From a virus, in the IMG/VR virus record IMGVR_UViG_3300031687_000064, positions 1 to 32,464 of that record: a stretch of DNA of 32,464 nt; one strand, 5' to 3'. Positions 17,437 through 32,446 of the stretch are shown here, in pieces. How positions within the stretch are numbered: position 1 is the first letter of the stretch; every line of letters begins with the position of its first letter. A program made the translations under genes and the position numbers. The notes below the pieces were generated by a model that did not search any database, was not told where the DNA came from, and saw nothing but the letters and a program-made list of their open reading frames with translations.

Positions 17437-20013
17437 ATGGCAATTAATTTAAAACAAATATCAACATTAGATACTGACAACTTAAAGTTGGACAAGGTTA
17501 ATTATAACTTTGATCAGTTGGTTGCTAATGGAGGAGGACCTGCTGGAGTTCAAGGACCTTATGGTACTACTGGGTTTCAAGGAATCACAGGAGCACAGGG
17601 AGTACAGGGAACTTTAGGAAATCAAGGATTTCAAGGGCCTCAGGGTAATAATGGACAAGGCATATGGAAAGTGAATACTGGTGGAAATACAAAAACACTA
17701 TTACCAATACATGATGTAGTTGATTTTCCAGCTAGAATCCACCCGCCAAGTGTACTTATAGGATTCAAATCAGATGATCCGGAATATGATGATAGTTATA
17801 TTGAAGAGAATGCATCTCTTGTTGTCAACAGACATACTAAGTTTTATAATAATTTAGAATTAAGATCTTTTGGAGTTACTAATAAATTTTTATACAGGCT
17901 AACGCATGACAATAACGTTACAACGATGGAAACTAGATTTTCATTAGATGGTGGTGCATATAATCAACACGCTGATCTATTCACATGGTCAACTCCTTTA
18001 TCGGCACAGCCTCTGATTTCTTTAGATTCTACGATGTTAGATATTAATGTTGCCTCAGATTTCGAGGATTTAACAGTTAACGGTATTTTTAAAATAGTTA
18101 ATGGTTTACCAGATACTGGTAAAATTGCAGTTGCTAAAGATGTTACTGGTGAAATAGAGTTCAAATCAATAGAGGATATTGGGGGAGTTGTACCTGTTGG
18201 TACTATTGTTTCAGTCGATCCATCTTTTTATAATAACTCATTCATACAAACAGAGGTGGTACCATCTCCATTAAACGACGCAGTTGTTTTAACAGTTGGA
18301 GCTGGTTTTGGAAATTTTGCAGGTTGGTATTTATGTAATGGTAGAACTTGGAAAAATTCAACAGTATCTTATATCGTTGATGATCTAAACTCATTTTCTT
18401 ACAATATACAGAATGATACAGATAATACTAATGCAAATAGCCAGGGAGATGCTGTATTAGTAAATAATAAAACGTCTTTAATTGGGGGAGCAGACTCACA
18501 AATGGATGCAACGTTTACGCCGGGAGCAAACAACGTACCTGGAACATATAGTGTTAATGGTACTATATCGACATCACCAGTTGATATAACGTCAGGTACT
18601 GGTATTAATTTTACTATTAAAAAATTACCTCAAATAATATATTTAGGAGCCGTTGATTTACATTGGCAAGAATCAGGATTAGGTGCAAACGTAGTATTAC
18701 CTACATTTGTTTTATCTGATTGGACTGGTAGCGTTTCTCTAATTAACAATGACGGAGACACTATATTGGAGAGAGTACTTGGTAATTCACCAATGGTTAA
18801 CTTAACTAATAATATAGGTATAAATTCAACTTACTCTATTATTTCTAATTCAACTTCAATAGATATAAAAGTACCTAATGGATATATTAATGCTGGTCAG
18901 TTTATAACTGGTTTATTTAATATAAATCAAGAAGCAGCGATCGAACCAAATTACACGTTAACTACAACTAATAATAGTGTTAGAACAAATTGGACACTTA
19001 GAACACTTAATAATGTAAATGCTCCACTAGCACAATCTAATATGTCAGTTAGTGTATTGCCTGGAGGTACAGGAACTATAATAACATATGTCGTTCCTGA
19101 TGCAGGATACGCTCTCCCTAATTTATTCGATATAACATGGACTGGCGATACGTCTAATACTGAGATTACACAAGCAGCGCATGGCGCTTATCAGATTAAA
19201 ACGGAACATATTAGCATGCATGCTAATATAAATAGCACTTATGTTTTCAGCATACAAGCTTCTTTAATTTATTATAATACAGCACAAACTGGTCAAGCTT
19301 CTAAAACTAATTGTCCGCCTGGACAATCCCCTGATAGTCCAAACGTGTCAACTGTAACTAAACAAGCAGGTTCTTATAATAGTATTATATCGCAATTTAA
19401 TGCAAATGCAAAAGCGCATTTTGCAGCAACACAGGATGCACAAATCCTTGCTAATTCAAGTGGCACATGTTCTACTGATAATACATGTCTGATTGAAGGA
19501 ACTCAGGTAGAAATGAGTAACGGTACATTTAAGAATATTGAAAACATATTAGTAGGAGACAATGTTATGTCATTTAATATACATACAATGCCGTCTAATG
19601 ATAATGTATCTCAATTATTAACATGGGAATCTCTTGAGTTAAATACAGATGAATCTATCGCTCGAGTAACAGGGAACACTGAGAGCATCTCAATGGAAAT
19701 ATTTAATATAAATAATAATCTTTTAAAAGCAACTGCAAGTCATTTACATATAATTAAAAGAAATAATGTTTGGAAGATATCTAAAACTGAAAACATATTA
19801 GTTGGAGATTATCTATTAAATAAAGATCTTACAACTACTATTATAACTACAATTGAGATTGAAAACGAAGATAATTATAAAGTGTATAAATTAGATGTAG
19901 AGGATGATGATGTTTATGTTGCGAATGGAATAGTAACACATAATCTAAAAGACCCTGATGGGGAGAACGATGGTTTAGGAAATAATGGGCATAATAACGT
20001 CGGAATACAATAA
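17437..20013 (+). CDS. Collagen-like tail fibre protein with tail-collar, DUF5977-like and C-terminal Hint domains
   Basis: An 858-aa protein paralogous to the preceding gene. In order it has: an N-terminal anchor (KLDKVNYNFDQL); Gly-X-Y triplets at residues 34-73; a tail-collar-like segment at about 251-335 (VPVGTIVSV, then GWYLCNGRTW and DDLNSF); a long beta-rich receptor-type region; a DUF5977-like unit at about 612-678, starting with Cys626 and ending QILANSSGTC at Cys678; and a complete Hint domain at 684-836, followed by a 22-residue tail. Hint domains cleave themselves, so the fibre may be processed or covalently joined after assembly. The Hint part is absent from the paralogue, which suggests a later gain of the C-terminal modules. 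The gene has its own 47-base leader and a possible late promoter, and ends four bases before the next start. Confidence 0.75.
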   Translation: MAINLKQISTLDTDNLKLDKVNYNFDQLVANGGGPAGVQGPYGTTGFQGITGAQGVQGTLGNQGFQGPQGNNGQGIWKVNTGGNTKTLLPIHDVVDFPARIHPPSVLIGFKSDDPEYDDSYIEENASLVVNRHTKFYNNLELRSFGVTNKFLYRLTHDNNVTTMETRFSLDGGAYNQHADLFTWSTPLSAQPLISLDSTMLDINVASDFEDLTVNGIFKIVNGLPDTGKIAVAKDVTGEIEFKSIEDIGGVVPVGTIVSVDPSFYNNSFIQTEVVPSPLNDAVVLTVGAGFGNFAGWYLCNGRTWKNSTVSYIVDDLNSFSYNIQNDTDNTNANSQGDAVLVNNKTSLIGGADSQMDATFTPGANNVPGTYSVNGTISTSPVDITSGTGINFTIKKLPQIIYLGAVDLHWQESGLGANVVLPTFVLSDWTGSVSLINNDGDTILERVLGNSPMVNLTNNIGINSTYSIISNSTSIDIKVPNGYINAGQFITGLFNINQEAAIEPNYTLTTTNNSVRTNWTLRTLNNVNAPLAQSNMSVSVLPGGTGTIITYVVPDAGYALPNLFDITWTGDTSNTEITQAAHGAYQIKTEHISMHANINSTYVFSIQASLIYYNTAQTGQASKTNCPPGQSPDSPNVSTVTKQAGSYNSIISQFNANAKAHFAATQDAQILANSSGTCSTDNTCLIEGTQVEMSNGTFKNIENILVGDNVMSFNIHTMPSNDNVSQLLTWESLELNTDESIARVTGNTESISMEIFNINNNLLKATASHLHIIKRNNVWKISKTENILVGDYLLNKDLTTTIITTIEIENEDNYKVYKLDVEDDDVYVANGIVTHNLKDPDGENDGLGNNGHNNVGIQ
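17536..17655 (+). repeat. Gly-X-Y collagen-like coding repeat
   Basis: Fourteen consecutive triplets with Gly first (residues 34-73 of the 858-aa protein), rich in Gln (GVQG, GFQG, GAQG). It corresponds to the run in the upstream paralogue but has diverged in X and Y. Confidence 0.85.
19486..19944 (+). other. Hint (Hedgehog/intein-type) autoprocessing domain, mini-intein size
   Basis: Residues 684-836 (153 aa) of the tail fibre. Block A begins at the nucleophile Cys684: CLIEGTQVEMSNGTFKNIEN, then ILVGD. Block B is T766-A-S-H769, the TxxH that activates the first peptide bond. Blocks F/G are YKLDVEDDDVYVANGIVTHN, ending His835-Asn836. There is no endonuclease insert. The residue after Asn836 is Leu837, not the Cys, Ser or Thr needed as the second nucleophile of standard splicing, so N-terminal cleavage, C-terminal cleavage or a bacterial intein-like (BIL) reaction is more likely than splicing. 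The motifs are clear; the reaction type is inference. Confidence 0.85.
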
Positions 20014-23455: not shown

Positions 23456-23824
23456 ATGAAAACATTTTTAGATTACATGGAAGATGCAGATATCACTAAT
23501 GAAGAGCTTCAGGTTTTACAAGAGTCATTACAGACTGAGTGGACTGATGAGCTTGAGGAAAAGGTAGATGCTGCTTTAGAAGAATTTGCAAAGGAATACA
23601 AGAACGAAGACGGAACTTTTAATATAGAAAGACTTAATACTGAAATGACAAATGAAGGTATGTTTGGTTCTATATTCGGAGGTTTAACAGGATTCGCTCT
23701 TGGTAAAACCATTGGTAAAACTGTTGCTAAAGTAATGGGTATTCAAAAAGGTATATTTTATGATATGTTAACCTCACGATTAGTTGGAGCTGCTTTAGGT
23801 TCTGCTATCGGTAAAGCTCTATAA
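23456..23824 (+). CDS. Glycine-zipper protein with acidic N-terminal segment, possible membrane-active virion protein
   Basis: A 122-aa protein in two parts. Residues 1-67 are acidic and helical (MKTFLDYMEDADITNEELQV onward). Residues 68-122 contain two hydrophobic Gly/Ala-spaced segments (MFGSIFGGLTGFALGKTIGK and SRLVGAALGSAIGKAL), whose GxxxG-type spacing is that of glycine zippers found in membrane-inserting and pore-forming proteins. The border reads MTNE-GMF, a Glu|Gly step after a small residue, similar to T4 prohead protease sites, and the start MKTF resembles the start of T4 internal proteins (MKTYQEF). Cleavage would release the membrane-active half. A holin-like or injected-protein role is possible. 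It ends directly before the RuvC-like gene with no gap. Confidence 0.55.
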   Translation: MKTFLDYMEDADITNEELQVLQESLQTEWTDELEEKVDAALEEFAKEYKNEDGTFNIERLNTEMTNEGMFGSIFGGLTGFALGKTIGKTVAKVMGIQKGIFYDMLTSRLVGAALGSAIGKAL

Positions 23825-24876: not shown

Positions 24877-25797
24877 ATGGCAGAATTTGACATTTTCAAT
24901 TTAGGCGTCTCAGACGTCGACACACACGAACAACAAGCAAAAACGGATGTAATCTATAAACCTAGTGCAGACCAAGGTAAAGATGGGACATACAAAGCAT
25001 TAATACGTTTTGTTCCTAATCCAGCAAATCCACGTAACTCATTAGTTAAAAAATATGTACACTGGTTAACAGATGCATCAGGTAATGGTCGATTAGTCGA
25101 TTCACCTAGCTCTGTTGGAGAAACTTGCCCAATTGCGGAATCTTTCTTCAAATTACGTAATAGTGATTCAGCAGTAGACCGTAAAATGAGTGAGAAATTA
25201 AAAAGACGTGAACAATACTACGCACTTATTAAAGTAGTTAAAGATCCTCAAAACACAGCAATGGAAGGCCAATATATGGTATATAAGTTCGGTTACAAGA
25301 TCAAAGAAAAGATCGATGAGGAATTAAAACCTGCATTTGGTGAACCAACTCAAGTATTCGATTTATTCGAAGGTAAAAACTTTGAGTTAATCATTACAAG
25401 ACAAGGTGAATATAACAACTACGATAAATCTAAATTCTCAGCAAGTCGCTCAGCAATTTCAGTAGAAGGAGAACCAGCAGAAAGAAACAAAGAATCTATG
25501 ACAGTTATTAAAGCTGAATTAGAAGCAGCACCATCATTAGAGCCTTATGAATATAAAGCATGGGATGGAGACGCAAGAGACTTTGTTAACGGTATATTAA
25601 GACAATACTTAAATCCAGGTAGTTCAATGGACGCAGTTATTTCAAAACCTAAAGCAAAACCAGCACCGAAGCAGAAAGCTAAAGTAGCAGAAGCAGTTGG
25701 AAGCACAGATACAGAAATAGATACTAATCCATCGCCAGCAGCTTCAGCGGATAGCAGCGACGATCTAGATTCTTTCTTGAATGACCTTGATATCTAA
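24877..25797 (+). CDS. 32: Single-stranded DNA-binding protein, T4 gp32 family
   Basis: A 306-aa ssDNA-binding protein (T4 gp32 is 301 aa) that coats replication and recombination intermediates and organises the replisome. The core shows YKALIRFVPN (about 39-48), the aromatic segment REQYYALIKVVKDPQNTAME (about 111-130) and GQYMVYKFGYKIKEKI, close to T4 YWANILVVKDP and VFKYRFGKKIWDKI. NYDKSKF (181-187) matches T4 NYDESKF. The C-terminus is an acidic tail (SSDDLDSFLNDLDI), the protein-interaction handle of the family. Of the four T4 zinc ligands, only His62 and Cys84 align; the other two are absent. Arg codons include many CGT, unlike neighbouring AGA-rich genes, as expected for a highly expressed gene. 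The 3' end overlaps the primase gene by 17 bases. Confidence 0.92.
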   Translation: MAEFDIFNLGVSDVDTHEQQAKTDVIYKPSADQGKDGTYKALIRFVPNPANPRNSLVKKYVHWLTDASGNGRLVDSPSSVGETCPIAESFFKLRNSDSAVDRKMSEKLKRREQYYALIKVVKDPQNTAMEGQYMVYKFGYKIKEKIDEELKPAFGEPTQVFDLFEGKNFELIITRQGEYNNYDKSKFSASRSAISVEGEPAERNKESMTVIKAELEAAPSLEPYEYKAWDGDARDFVNGILRQYLNPGSSMDAVISKPKAKPAPKQKAKVAEAVGSTDTEIDTNPSPAASADSSDDLDSFLNDLDI

Positions 25798-29133: not shown

Positions 29134-30996
29134 ATGGCAGAAATGAACAAAATAAAATCTTTTAAATCGTTCTCTGATATAATAGCAACTGAATCAGCGG
29201 CTAAATTAGAAGAAGAAAACAATATTAAAAGAACAGAATTATCTACAAAGATTGCATCTATATTAGATTCAATGGAAATCACTTCATTAGAAGGATTAGA
29301 AGAAGATCAAAAATCAGCAATTATCAAGGAATTATTCGGAGATGTTAAAGAAGAAGACGTTATTGATGTCGATGTAGTAGACCAGCCGCTTGTATCTGAT
29401 GAACCTGAAGAAGAGATCGAAGAAGATACTAAATTAGAAGAGCGTAATGCATTTCTAGGAGCAAGGGCTAAAGCTATTGAAGAAGATTTAGAAGAATTTG
29501 AATTTAATGGTAAAACTTACCCTGTGACTGTTAATGAATCTACAGTACTTAATGAAGGAACTAGAGGTCAATTCGGTAAAATAGATAAAAAAGGAAATAT
29601 CACATCAGTATATACTCATTATGATTCATATCCTGATAACGTATTACCATTGATTAAAAAGGGTTATAAAAACGTTAAAGCAGTAGATGCTGTAATTAGT
29701 GGGGGAGCTAATTCTGGATTAGAAGCAACACCTGACAAAATGAATTTCTATAACGATGATTTTGAGGAAACAACAGGAACTATAAGTAAAATTAAGAATT
29801 ATTTAAAAAGTATCGCTGATGAATCTGGCGCTGAATACGCATATCTTTACGATGAAAGAATTGGTAAATGGATGATGGCAGATATTTATGGTGAAACTGG
29901 ATTAGTTAAAGCATTTGAATCAGTATCAGTTGAAGAAGCAACAGTAGTAATGGATGCAACTGATCCTAAATCAAAAGATCTCGCAAAGTTATTAAAGAAG
30001 AATAAAGTTACAATGGAAATTCTAGATATGGAAGGTCCTTCTGGATTTCCTGAAATTGAACTTAAAGGAAAAAGAAAAGATTTAGTTGCAGTTCTATCAA
30101 GTGAAGACGGATGGGACGACGCTGATTTAGCTGAATACATTGAAGAATCTAAAGTTATTGAAGAGGTTAATGAAGGAGCAGTTGTTTTAGCTAAACTTAA
30201 AAAGGACATCATATATTTAACAGATATGATGGAGGATGAAAGAATGTATGGAGATCCCGACATGAAAGAAATAGTAAAATTATTAAAAGCAAATAAATTA
30301 GAAGATGCTGCGACTGAGTTCTTATCATCATTTGCAGATCAAGACGGCGGAGAAGGAAATATAGACTGGGGAGGAGTCCAGAGTGATGTTGAACAGTCAT
30401 TTTCTGAATACGTTACAGAATCTTTAATTAATGAAGCTGTTACTATATTTGAAAAAGATTTAGCCGACATGATTAAGGAAATCAAAAAGGGTTATGGATG
30501 GATAGACCCTGAATACGTAGGAAGTACTTGGGAAAGTATGAGTAACTCTATATCATTTGATTTAGTTCAAAATGAAATATACAAAAGATTAATAGCTGCT
30601 GGATTATTAGCAACCCCAGGCGAAGATGAAGAAGAAGCTGGAACTTACATTAAATCTTTAAAAGAATTAGGTATTAAAGAATCTGTAGTTAATGAAGCAG
30701 AAGTTACGTCTGATGAAGAATTTAAAGAATATGCAACAACTATATTGAAGAAAGCATTCGGAGATGATTTCGACGAAGATAAAGCAAACGATGTTATTGA
30801 TGGTATATTATCAAAAGTAGACGGAGATTACGGAGCTGCTGTCGGAATGTTAACATCATCTTTAGGAGAATCAGTTGAACTAGACGAAAAGATCGATGAA
30901 ATACCATGCAAAGAAGGTAAGAATCATGATTGGAAGCAAATCGATAAAGACGGAACTTCTCAATGTAATAATTGTGGACTTTTAAAGTCTGAATAA
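29134..30996 (+). CDS. Acidic modular protein with repeated protease-like sites, candidate internal head polyprotein
   Basis: A 620-aa, very acidic protein of unknown family. The N-terminus (KSFKSFSDIIATE20-S21) resembles the capsid-targeting peptide of T4 internal proteins. Residues 21-140 are a Glu-rich helical region. Residues 142-255 form a unit I recognise from many phage hypothetical proteins: TRGQFGKIDKKGNITSVYTH, then YDSYPDNVLPLI and a 'kvdavIsgG..S.L' step. Smaller modules follow at about 269-343, 348-430, 435-515 and 522-590. The C-terminus is a short zinc-ribbon-like end with Cys592, His598, Cys611 and Cys614. Module borders coincide with VLNE141-G, SVEE268-A, EVNE347-G, LINE434-A and VVNE521-A, all fitting the T4 gp21-type pattern hydrophobic-X-Glu|Ala/Gly/Ser. 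A packaged polyprotein or prohead scaffold is possible. Confidence 0.6.
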   Translation: MAEMNKIKSFKSFSDIIATESAAKLEEENNIKRTELSTKIASILDSMEITSLEGLEEDQKSAIIKELFGDVKEEDVIDVDVVDQPLVSDEPEEEIEEDTKLEERNAFLGARAKAIEEDLEEFEFNGKTYPVTVNESTVLNEGTRGQFGKIDKKGNITSVYTHYDSYPDNVLPLIKKGYKNVKAVDAVISGGANSGLEATPDKMNFYNDDFEETTGTISKIKNYLKSIADESGAEYAYLYDERIGKWMMADIYGETGLVKAFESVSVEEATVVMDATDPKSKDLAKLLKKNKVTMEILDMEGPSGFPEIELKGKRKDLVAVLSSEDGWDDADLAEYIEESKVIEEVNEGAVVLAKLKKDIIYLTDMMEDERMYGDPDMKEIVKLLKANKLEDAATEFLSSFADQDGGEGNIDWGGVQSDVEQSFSEYVTESLINEAVTIFEKDLADMIKEIKKGYGWIDPEYVGSTWESMSNSISFDLVQNEIYKRLIAAGLLATPGEDEEEAGTYIKSLKELGIKESVVNEAEVTSDEEFKEYATTILKKAFGDDFDEDKANDVIDGILSKVDGDYGAAVGMLTSSLGESVELDEKIDEIPCKEGKNHDWKQIDKDGTSQCNNCGLLKSE

Positions 30997-31012: not shown

Positions 31013-31045
31013 ATTGCCCTGGATTTTACCGGGTCAATTTTTTTT
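31013..31045 (+). terminator. Intrinsic terminator after the 620-aa gene
   Basis: ATTGCCC-T-GG pairs with CC-GGG-T-CAAT around the loop ATTTTA, with one T bulged on each side. The right arm runs straight into eight Ts. An A-tract (30994-31010) precedes the stem, so the structure could also stop transcription from the other strand. It separates the 620-aa gene from the three small genes, which therefore need their own promoter or read-through. Confidence 0.75.
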
Positions 31046-31058
31046 ATTATATTTACAT

Positions 31059-31083
31059 ATGAAACATATAAAACTATTTGAAG
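31059..31083 (+). repeat. Tag-coding repeat, copy 1
   Basis: The first 20 bases, ATGAAACATATAAAACTATT, are identical to copy 2, and the next five differ at one position (TGAAG against CGAAG). It encodes MKHIKLFE. Confidence 0.85.
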
Positions 31084-31493
31084 AGTATACTGAAACAATT
31101 TACCATGAAAATGATTTTGTAGGAATGCAAGCTCATAAACTTGGAATGACAAGAGAAGAATACACTGCGCATTACGGATCAGATTCAGGAATTGATGAAG
31201 CAAAGGCAATATCTTCTCAAAACGAACCATTTAAAGTAAAAGGAATTAACTTTTCTTATATAGAACAGAACGGTAAGTTTTATGGAGCAAGCTTATACGA
31301 TGTAGCTAAAACTGCAAACGTAAACAAGAAAGTAAAATTTGGATTAGACGAGATCAATTCTTTTTTGAAATCAATTAAGATCAAAGACGAAGTACCTTTT
31401 AGATACGAAGAAGAAGAATTAGAAGTTATTTGTAAACAATTAAGAAAAAAAGGCATCGTGTGTGATTATGACGATGTTATGGATGTATCCTAA
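31059..31493 (+). CDS. Candidate internal head protein with MKHIKLFE N-terminal tag (144 aa)
   Basis: The start is set at the Met at 31059. An upstream in-frame ATG at 31014 would lie inside the terminator hairpin, and the MKHIKLFE start is shared with the next two genes. The tag (MKHIKLFEEYTETIYHEND) is followed by QAHKLGMTREEYTAHYG, a polar helix-turn segment. SGIDE47-A48 is a possible protease site; unlike its neighbours, this protein lacks the Glu16-Ala17 step. The mature part would be a mixed alpha/beta domain (KVKGINFSYIEQNGKFYG) ending in a helix with two Cys (EVICKQLRKKGIVCDYDD). The function of the mature part is unknown. The shared tag implies a common destination, by analogy with T4 internal proteins the capsid interior. 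Confidence 0.6.
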   Translation: MKHIKLFEEYTETIYHENDFVGMQAHKLGMTREEYTAHYGSDSGIDEAKAISSQNEPFKVKGINFSYIEQNGKFYGASLYDVAKTANVNKKVKFGLDEINSFLKSIKIKDEVPFRYEEEELEVICKQLRKKGIVCDYDDVMDVS

Positions 31494-31504
31494 ACAAAAC
31501 AATT

Positions 31505-31529
31505 ATGAAACATATAAAACTATTCGAAG
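31505..31529 (+). repeat. Tag-coding repeat, copy 2
   Basis: 24 of 25 bases are identical to copy 1. It encodes MKHIKLFE at the start of the 123-aa protein. Confidence 0.85.
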
Positions 31530-31876
31530 CTTTTACTTCAACCCTAAGCGAAGCTAAAAAAGTAAGTCCGGCAGAATTCAAGAAATTGTTTGACGCATTA
31601 AAAGAGCTTACTAACATTACCAAGTTAAAGAAAGGTTCTAAAGGAGCTATAACGTTCACTGCGCCAGATGGTGACCCATATACAGTAAAACATGAAGAAG
31701 GAGACATCATGGTATATAACGATCAATATCTTATATGGAAAGATGAATATGCTGAGGAAGTTGGGGGAATATCTACAGATGATTTCGAAGATATGGAAAT
31801 AGAATTAGATTCTACAGATTCAGCTGAATGGTTGGATTTTCAAGAAGCTGTTGATTTTATTGCCGCATTAAAATAA
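31505..31876 (+). CDS. Candidate internal head protein with MKHIKLFEAF tag (123 aa)
   Basis: A 123-aa acidic protein. The N-terminal tag MKHIKLFEAFTSTLSE16-A17 ends at a Leu-Ser-Glu|Ala step that fits the T4 prohead protease rule (hydrophobic-X-Glu, then Ala/Gly/Ser). T4 internal proteins carry a similar leader, MKTYQEFIAEA, also cut after Glu. The predicted mature part (17-123) has a helix (PAEFKKLFDALKEL), a small beta region (GAITFTAPDGDPYTVKHEEG and IMVYNDQYLIW) and an acidic helical C-terminus (EWLDFQEAVDFIAALK). No known enzyme motif is visible. The gene follows the preceding stop by 11 bases and uses an A-rich leader, so the three tagged genes form one transcription unit. Confidence 0.65.
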   Translation: MKHIKLFEAFTSTLSEAKKVSPAEFKKLFDALKELTNITKLKKGSKGAITFTAPDGDPYTVKHEEGDIMVYNDQYLIWKDEYAEEVGGISTDDFEDMEIELDSTDSAEWLDFQEAVDFIAALK

Positions 31877-31906
31877 CAAAAATTAAATTAAATTAAAATT
31901 AAAATT
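31877..31906 (+). repeat. AAATT-type tandem repeat leader
   Basis: The 30-base gap is made almost wholly of AATTA/AAATT units (AAATTAAATTAAATT, then AAAATTAAAATT) running into the ATG. It has no Shine-Dalgarno. It is the most regular example of the A/T leaders used in this window. Confidence 0.7.
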
Positions 31907-31931
31907 ATGAAACACGTAAAATTATTTGAAG
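31907..31931 (+). repeat. Tag-coding repeat, copy 3
   Basis: 22 of 25 bases match copy 1; differences at three bases change Ile4 to Val and leave the other residues of MKHVKLFE unchanged. Confidence 0.8.
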
Positions 31932-32446
31932 CATTCGTTGCAAACATCAGCGAAGCATCTAAGTTTAAAAAAGGAGACACGATAACTTCTAAAGTTAATG
32001 ATAACGGATTAGAATATTCTTTATATGATTTAACTAATGATGTTGACGGTATCTCATTAAACAAAGGTACTGAATTCAAAATAACAGGATTCAATAAAAA
32101 AGAAGAAACTGTTGAATTACAGGGAGTTAATGATGACGAGAATGAATATTCATTAGTATCTACTGATTTACAATTCTTCGAATCATTTACTTCAACATTA
32201 AACGAAGCTAAAGTAAACTTAAAGAAAGCTTTGAAAACACTGACATCAGACGGATATGACGCTCGTTTAGAATATGACATGATAAATGTTACAGATGATG
32301 AAAACGAATACCACTGGGATGGTATAGAAGCAAGTGTTGAAACAGAAAACAGCAACCAAGGATGGTCAACAGATGTAACATCAGTTGAAGATTTTATAAC
32401 ACTAATGACAGACGACGAACTTCCTACTGGAGAATGGGTAGATTAA
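31907..32446 (+). CDS. Candidate internal head protein with two tag/cleavage signatures (179 aa)
   Basis: A 179-aa protein that looks like two joined units. The N-terminal tag MKHVKLFEAFVANISE16-A17 parallels the previous gene exactly in length and cut position. Residues 17-89 form a small beta domain (KKGDTITSKVNDNG onward), SH3-like by pattern. Residues 90-101 (FFESFTSTLNE100-A101) repeat the tag core KLFEAFTSTLSE-A of the upstream protein. Residues 101-179 are a second domain: a basic helix (KVNLKKALKTL), then an acidic alpha/beta part (ARLEYDMINVTDDENEYHWD). If the prohead protease recognises both sites, one precursor would yield two internal proteins. This is inference from motifs. The window ends 18 bases after the stop. 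Confidence 0.65.
   Translation: MKHVKLFEAFVANISEASKFKKGDTITSKVNDNGLEYSLYDLTNDVDGISLNKGTEFKITGFNKKEETVELQGVNDDENEYSLVSTDLQFFESFTSTLNEAKVNLKKALKTLTSDGYDARLEYDMINVTDDENEYHWDGIEASVETENSNQGWSTDVTSVEDFITLMTDDELPTGEWVD
32174..32214 (+). repeat. Internal partial copy of the tag region
   Basis: It encodes FFESFTSTLNEAK in frame inside the 179-aa gene. TTTACTTCAAC and GAAGCTAAA are shared with the tag of the 123-aa gene at the same spacing, so it probably arose by fusion with a tagged gene. Confidence 0.7.

Follow-up and report, generated by a model that had tools for sequence, protein, structure and literature searches.

We found that three adjacent genes of a 32-kb virus fragment very likely (probability about 0.85) belong to a large, fast-changing set of head-cargo genes in T4-like marine phages; packaging, cleavage and injection are inferred, with no virion proteomics, cleavage assay or isolate behind them. 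The fragment, hereafter the window, is the whole 32,464-nucleotide stretch of DNA that was analysed, and it carries T4-type genes for a tail tube, a RuvC-like protein, a primase and UvsW, together with a gene at 24877-25797 which we take, by eye, to be gp32-like. We propose that a leader of about 13-16 residues (MKHIKLFExFINE↓, the arrow marking the predicted cut) would act like the T4 capsid-targeting sequence: its aromatic half would dock the protein onto the prohead core during assembly, a gp21-type protease would then cut after hydrophobic-x-Glu, and the mature protein, free in the head, would pass into the next host along with the DNA. The same code of cut sites recurs inside the third gene and inside proteins of the type encoded at 29134-30996, where one chain would be loaded and cut into several small cargos. 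Modules would be exchangeable between phages at the cut sites, because any module behind a cut site becomes cargo. A preliminary description of the window had claimed an interchangeable capsid-targeting tag like that of the T4 internal proteins, which our computation supports, and anti-defence effectors, which are suggested only.

To place the window, we searched IMG/VR with UvsW and recovered 349 related stretches; the comparison set was eleven longer related marine contigs (90-236 kb) plus the window, 12 sequences in all. Contig genes were called by a simple longest-ORF method, so the start sites are our own, and the compared contigs are incomplete. A nucleotide search of this region against named phages gave no match, and a related-locus search using gene 1 as the query returned one contig only.

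The three genes all lie on the plus strand. Gene 1 (31059..31493, 144 aa) starts at the ATG at 31059, although the ORF listing extends upstream to a TTG at 31014; gene 2 occupies 31505..31876 (123 aa) and gene 3 occupies 31907..32446 (179 aa). Their N-termini read MKHIKLFEEY, MKHIKLFEAF and MKHVKLFEAF, respectively, and the claim of three consecutive genes that share MKH(I/V)KLFE and then diverge held. So did the claim that two of them carry LSE↓A or ISE↓A at exactly residues 14-17: these are gene 2 (leader 31505-31552, predicted cut after LSE16) and gene 3 (leader 31907-31954, predicted cut after ISE16). The IDE↓A of gene 1 at residues 45-48 (GIDE47↓A48) had been overlooked; it would end a long leader (31059-31199), with the predicted cut between 31199 and 31200. 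The second module of this leader is shared with a relative (G001:69467), in which it comes after its own FIDE↓S, so the gene 1 leader is probably longer rather than absent. Homologues of gene 1 occur in L003 (73%) and L069 (69%), and its mature part occurs without the rest, from residue 45, in L002 and L079.

Gene 2 scored 25.8 bits against the tag profile, and its L069 homologue (62%) carries its own tag. Gene 3 scored 24.1 bits and contains an internal tag-like FFESFTSTLNE (32174-32206, plus strand; residues 90-101 including the following A), whose predicted cut after E100 separates two mature modules, the first homologous to polyprotein modules and the second to stand-alone tagged proteins. 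In the structure model of gene 3, confidence dips at 96-102; module 1 weakly resembles SH3-like barrels, and module 2 is of low confidence and cannot be interpreted. A fold search of two predicted models, gene 3 and the window polyprotein described below, against the PDB gave no match at E<=0.001, and the window's three proteins had no domain match in Pfam or PHROGs.

A separate observation concerns a UPF0227-type esterase-like ORF (MKIAYLHGLESS) that continues in frame, stop-free, into a tag plus cargo in L002:14495-15340, L003:9530-10486 and G015:102986-104200. The cargo behind it in L002 and L003 is the mature part of window gene 1.

The shared N-terminus is not due to chance, since 125 matches to the tag profile reached 9 bits or more among the real proteins of the 12 sequences, while reversed or shuffled proteins yielded none. 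A genome-wide scan for more tagged ORFs, which the preliminary description had proposed as a check, came out in its favour, with the tag found on many further ORFs. The 236-kb relative G004 carries 27 tagged proteins, which fall into 26 mature families, and G001 carries 24 in 19. Across distant phages, the tagged proteins fall into 139 unrelated mature families with the leader as the sole common part; when representatives from 136 mature families were aligned, the match was limited to MKHIKLFExFxNE. Profile matches also revealed tag copies internal to proteins. A back-translated tag pattern was present in at least 120 stretches of IMG/VR, including contigs of 246, 256 and 482 kb, and divergent forms of the tag are present in uncultured phages of 462 and 635 kb.

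Could the shared N-termini be merely a by-product of recent duplication, or of a shared promoter or start region, without any function at the protein level? The genes do adjoin, and the DNA of genes 1 and 2 is nearly identical over the first codons. However, amino acids are kept even though codon identity at matched tag residues of non-homologous genes (0.636) barely exceeds the 0.573 expected from codon usage, so the conservation of the tag is mainly at the protein level. Within the window, the corresponding values were 0.61 and 0.54 (n=23). The 139 unrelated mature families over distant phages and the internal copies of the tag also speak against duplication, and we regard this alternative as practically ruled out. 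The earlier claim that the DNA of the tag is conserved beyond the rest is accordingly weak, and DNA-level conservation as a sign of recent copying was dropped, the excess over codon usage being small.

Next, we derived a logo from 113 tags picked by residues 1-5 only, from contigs that had not been fetched by the tag. Selecting on these residues avoids a bias, as our earlier pattern itself contained positions 7 and 10 or the Glu. The resulting logo reads MK-H/K-I/V-K-L-F/Y-E-x-F-I/V/L-N-E13↓A/S/G. An aromatic residue occupies position 7 in 95% and position 10 in 96% of tags, and I/L/V/M occupies position 11 in 86%; E is found at position 13 in 81% (background 8%) and is followed by A/G/S in 59% (background 20%). 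Conservation ends at E13, with information falling from 3.15 bits there to about 0.3-0.5 from position 15 onward. E is absent from position 13 in about 19% of tags, of which some have it at another position and some are perhaps uncut. Leaders are mostly 13-16 residues long with [ILV]xE sites.

These positions match those known to matter in T4. Mutagenesis of the T4 IPIII leader (MKTYQEFIAE↓A) showed that residues 4 and 7, both aromatic, direct targeting and that residues 8 and 10 direct processing (PMC9026906); shifted by three, they become positions 7, 10, 11 and 13 of our tag (aromatic, aromatic, hydrophobic and Glu). The likeness to IPI, IPII and IPIII extends to a short N-terminal leader on otherwise unrelated proteins, to two aromatics followed by hydrophobic-x-Glu↓Ala, and, as far as relatives of the window go, to a gp21-type protease; the window's FTSTLSE↓A is also similar to the IPI leader MKTFKEFTSTTTPVSTITE↓A. 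On the other hand, the leader is about three residues longer here (MKHIKLFE.F versus MKTYQEF), T4 has three IP genes compared with up to 27 tagged genes per genome, the protease is fused to a scaffold-like part, and the literature searched describes neither internal tags nor polyproteins for T4. That a leader sends varied proteins into T4-like heads is already known, and its use as a general device of T4-like phages has been proposed before (PMC9026906). What is new, within the literature searched, is the scale, the internal tags, the polyproteins and the exchange at cut sites.

Two other proteins of relatives bear tag-like stretches. A 623-aa protein (G004:42888-44756, L102:2888-4756, and relatives) has a C-terminal nucleotidyltransferase domain with stand-alone tagged homologues and ends, in several genomes, in the tag-like MTFEQFINKDI, a possible C-terminal tag. 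A protein of ~429 aa (G004:45250-46536, L102:5250-6536, and relatives) has a tag-like N-terminus in most relatives and GGAAGHMSHPFD after a hydrophobic-x-E site; it belongs to no known Pfam family.

Because the window has no head genes, the protease and the tags could be linked solely via relatives. A gp21-type protease gene was the second check proposed beforehand, and it too was in favour, through relatives only: although the window is a fragment without head genes, a gp21-type (S77) protease was found in 16/20 related contigs. The relatives' protease matched T4 gp21 at E=1e-11, keeps the LGEL-HP and SSR motifs (His and Ser) and continues, where T4 has gp22, into a fused coiled-coil part that resembles a scaffold (G014:117158-119074, L117:17158-19074, and relatives). 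The head operon of G014 runs portal, tagged 113-aa protein, S77 protease-scaffold, tagged 90-aa protein and gp23-type capsid protein, where the portal and scaffold are what we take them to be by position and by eye. Compared with the T4 order of 20-67-68-21-22-23, a tagged gene therefore occupies the slot of the T4 core proteins gp67/68. PHROG 24, a poorly chosen protease probe, gave no match. At another place in G002-G004 there is a second S77-like match, a short one in a 132-aa frame.

An alternative is that the tag has nothing to do with the head and instead serves localisation or interaction, for instance with a phage-made compartment, the membrane or a host protein, and that E↓A is not a cut site. 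Cleavage is without direct proof, and some tags lack the Glu. However, tagged genes lie beside the protease in the head operon, the functional positions of the T4 leader are matched, conservation stops abruptly at the Glu, and internal sites fall at module boundaries; we consider a non-head signal highly improbable.

We then turned to the gene downstream of uvsW and immediately upstream of the three tagged genes, which had escaped the preliminary description. It encodes a predicted cargo polyprotein of 620 aa (29134-30996, plus strand), whose modules are parted by NE↓, TE↓ or EE↓ sites, such as ESVVNE↓A. Strict sites fall after residues 135, 141, 268, 338, 347, 429, 434 and 521 (last bases 29538, 29556, 29937, 30147, 30174, 30420, 30435 and 30696), and the motif count was 6 against 0.85 expected. 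We ranked the proteins of 120 aa or longer from all contigs by how far their count of [ILV][NSTA]E[AGS] exceeded that in shuffles, and the top 22 comprised polyproteins, protease-scaffold fusions and one tagged protein. The uvsW-adjacent polyprotein was represented by 40 sequences, some truncated by contig ends, which arrange their modules in 35 distinct orders and draw on 43 recurrent families of modules; clustering demanded mutual coverage, single linkage having merged unrelated segments. Most modules span about 60-130 aa and have no known family, and a Pfam scan of four polyproteins, including the window's, found no convincing domain.

Structure prediction of the window polyprotein gave compact domains linked by low-confidence stretches. 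Six of the eight strict sites lie within 5 residues of such a stretch (34% expected); sites 429 and 434 are not beside a low-confidence linker. Module boundaries also match between chains: module starts common to stand-alone tagged genes and to other, mostly larger proteins were on a site in 38/87 contexts (null 3%). A cyanophage stand-alone protein begins M-GTR, that is, M and then the residue that follows VLNE141↓ of the window polyprotein, whose homologous module runs from residue 142.

Homology between phages often breaks at or near such sites. Contig L304 agrees with the window at 117/118 bases across module 1 of gene 3, as far as the GAA codon for E100, which ends at base 32206; from there on it encodes an unrelated second module, and the break is exact to the codon. 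Across cargo ORFs, we found 155 DNA homology breakpoints, defined on DNA of at least 93% identity; a site lay no more than 3 nt away for 41% of them (null 9%) and no more than 9 nt away for 69% (null 24%). Boundary contexts and breakpoints are not fully independent, as module families recur. Homology breakpoints thus cluster on predicted cut sites.

The strongest objection accepts the tag as a capsid-targeting leader but takes the multi-site proteins for ordinary multidomain components of the core or scaffold, whose sites, if used, only degrade them without releasing functional cargo. The protease-scaffold fusion has the same site enrichment, and among T4 head-region ORFs [ILV][NSTA]E[AGS] is most frequent in gp22 (6), which is degraded by gp21 (PMC5694885), and next in gp21 itself (3). 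However, the modules are folded domains in the model, they are common to stand-alone tagged cargo with the same start residue, and they are swapped whole at sites, for which scaffold debris has no need. We therefore think a pure scaffold role unlikely and favour the cargo reading. In its bolder form, which we hold to be likely, cleavable cargo polyproteins would be cut apart in the prohead, the cut sites would double as exchange points, and each phage would have its own reshuffled set of dozens of injected proteins; cleavage and injection are again inferred.

We compared this arrangement with other phage systems. As in phiKZ and SPN3US, numerous head proteins would be processed by a prohead protease, and SPN3US gp53 and gp54 have identical N-termini and diverge elsewhere (PMC5694885). 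Judged by the phiKZ/SPN3US pattern, in which several propeptides exceed 100 residues and the motif is SxE-like, the criterion is not met, because leaders here are short with [ILV]xE; moreover, extra sites are interpreted there as propeptide trimming, not as release of several cargo proteins. Polyvalent proteins, such as P1 DdrB, which is processed before packaging (PMC5512222), are likewise large multidomain chains, for which packaging and activity in the newly infected host are predicted. Theirs have recognised enzymatic domains (a metallopeptidase in DdrB), which the Pfam scan of four polyproteins did not show here; our modules are parted by gp21-type sites and have links to tagged genes that stand apart. 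The Moraphages and further T4-like phages that infect Bacteroidota are large and aquatic, with a prohead protease and UvsW (PMC12619734), and could conceivably be the wider group of these phages, for which we have no tree; the passages of that paper located by keyword make no mention of tags, internal proteins or polyproteins. We found no phage cargo polyproteins in the open-access literature searched (most subscription papers were outside its scope), and we know of no tailed phage whose injected effectors come from a polyprotein cut by a protease. Should the predicted cleavage of the polyproteins take place, tailed phages would share the chain-then-cut strategy of many eukaryotic viruses, with the cut sites also serving part swaps.

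Most mature cargo parts have no recognisable domain. Tagged cargo of relatives includes an Acb1-like protein that has two HxT motifs and matches Acb1 in Pfam at 31.2 bits (cut-off 27) and in the PDB at E=0.016, and other cargo with known domains includes a cytidylyltransferase-like enzyme, a phage lysozyme, ATP-grasp-like and DUF3008 proteins. T4 Ip1-3 are injected and inhibit GmrSD enzymes, a different one in each case (PMC12373910), so one would naturally expect a counter-defence set here. We infer that much of the cargo is directed against host defences, and for the window's three proteins such a role is no more than a plausible possibility by analogy, without functional data. The tag and cut site together offer a readable code for picking, in uncultured phage genomes, unknown proteins that are probably loaded into the head and delivered to the host, and a large pool of unknown marine phage genes becomes testable as early-acting or anti-defence proteins.

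Two further proteins of the window have features that suggest processing. The gene after the tail-tube gene (23456..23824, plus strand) encodes a conserved 122-aa protein with a short leader, MKTFLDY, and a TNE67↓G site; TNE↓G is kept in 43/44 distinct homologues, and the protein is likely, by inference, another substrate of the head protease. Its C-terminal 55 aa, downstream of TNE67↓G, are glycine-rich and hydrophobic, and this part might be a membrane or pore peptide freed by that protease. The collagen-like, tail-fibre-type protein at 17437-20013 has DUF5977 and then, near the C-terminus, a weak Hint/intein-like domain, which raises the possibility that it is self-processed.
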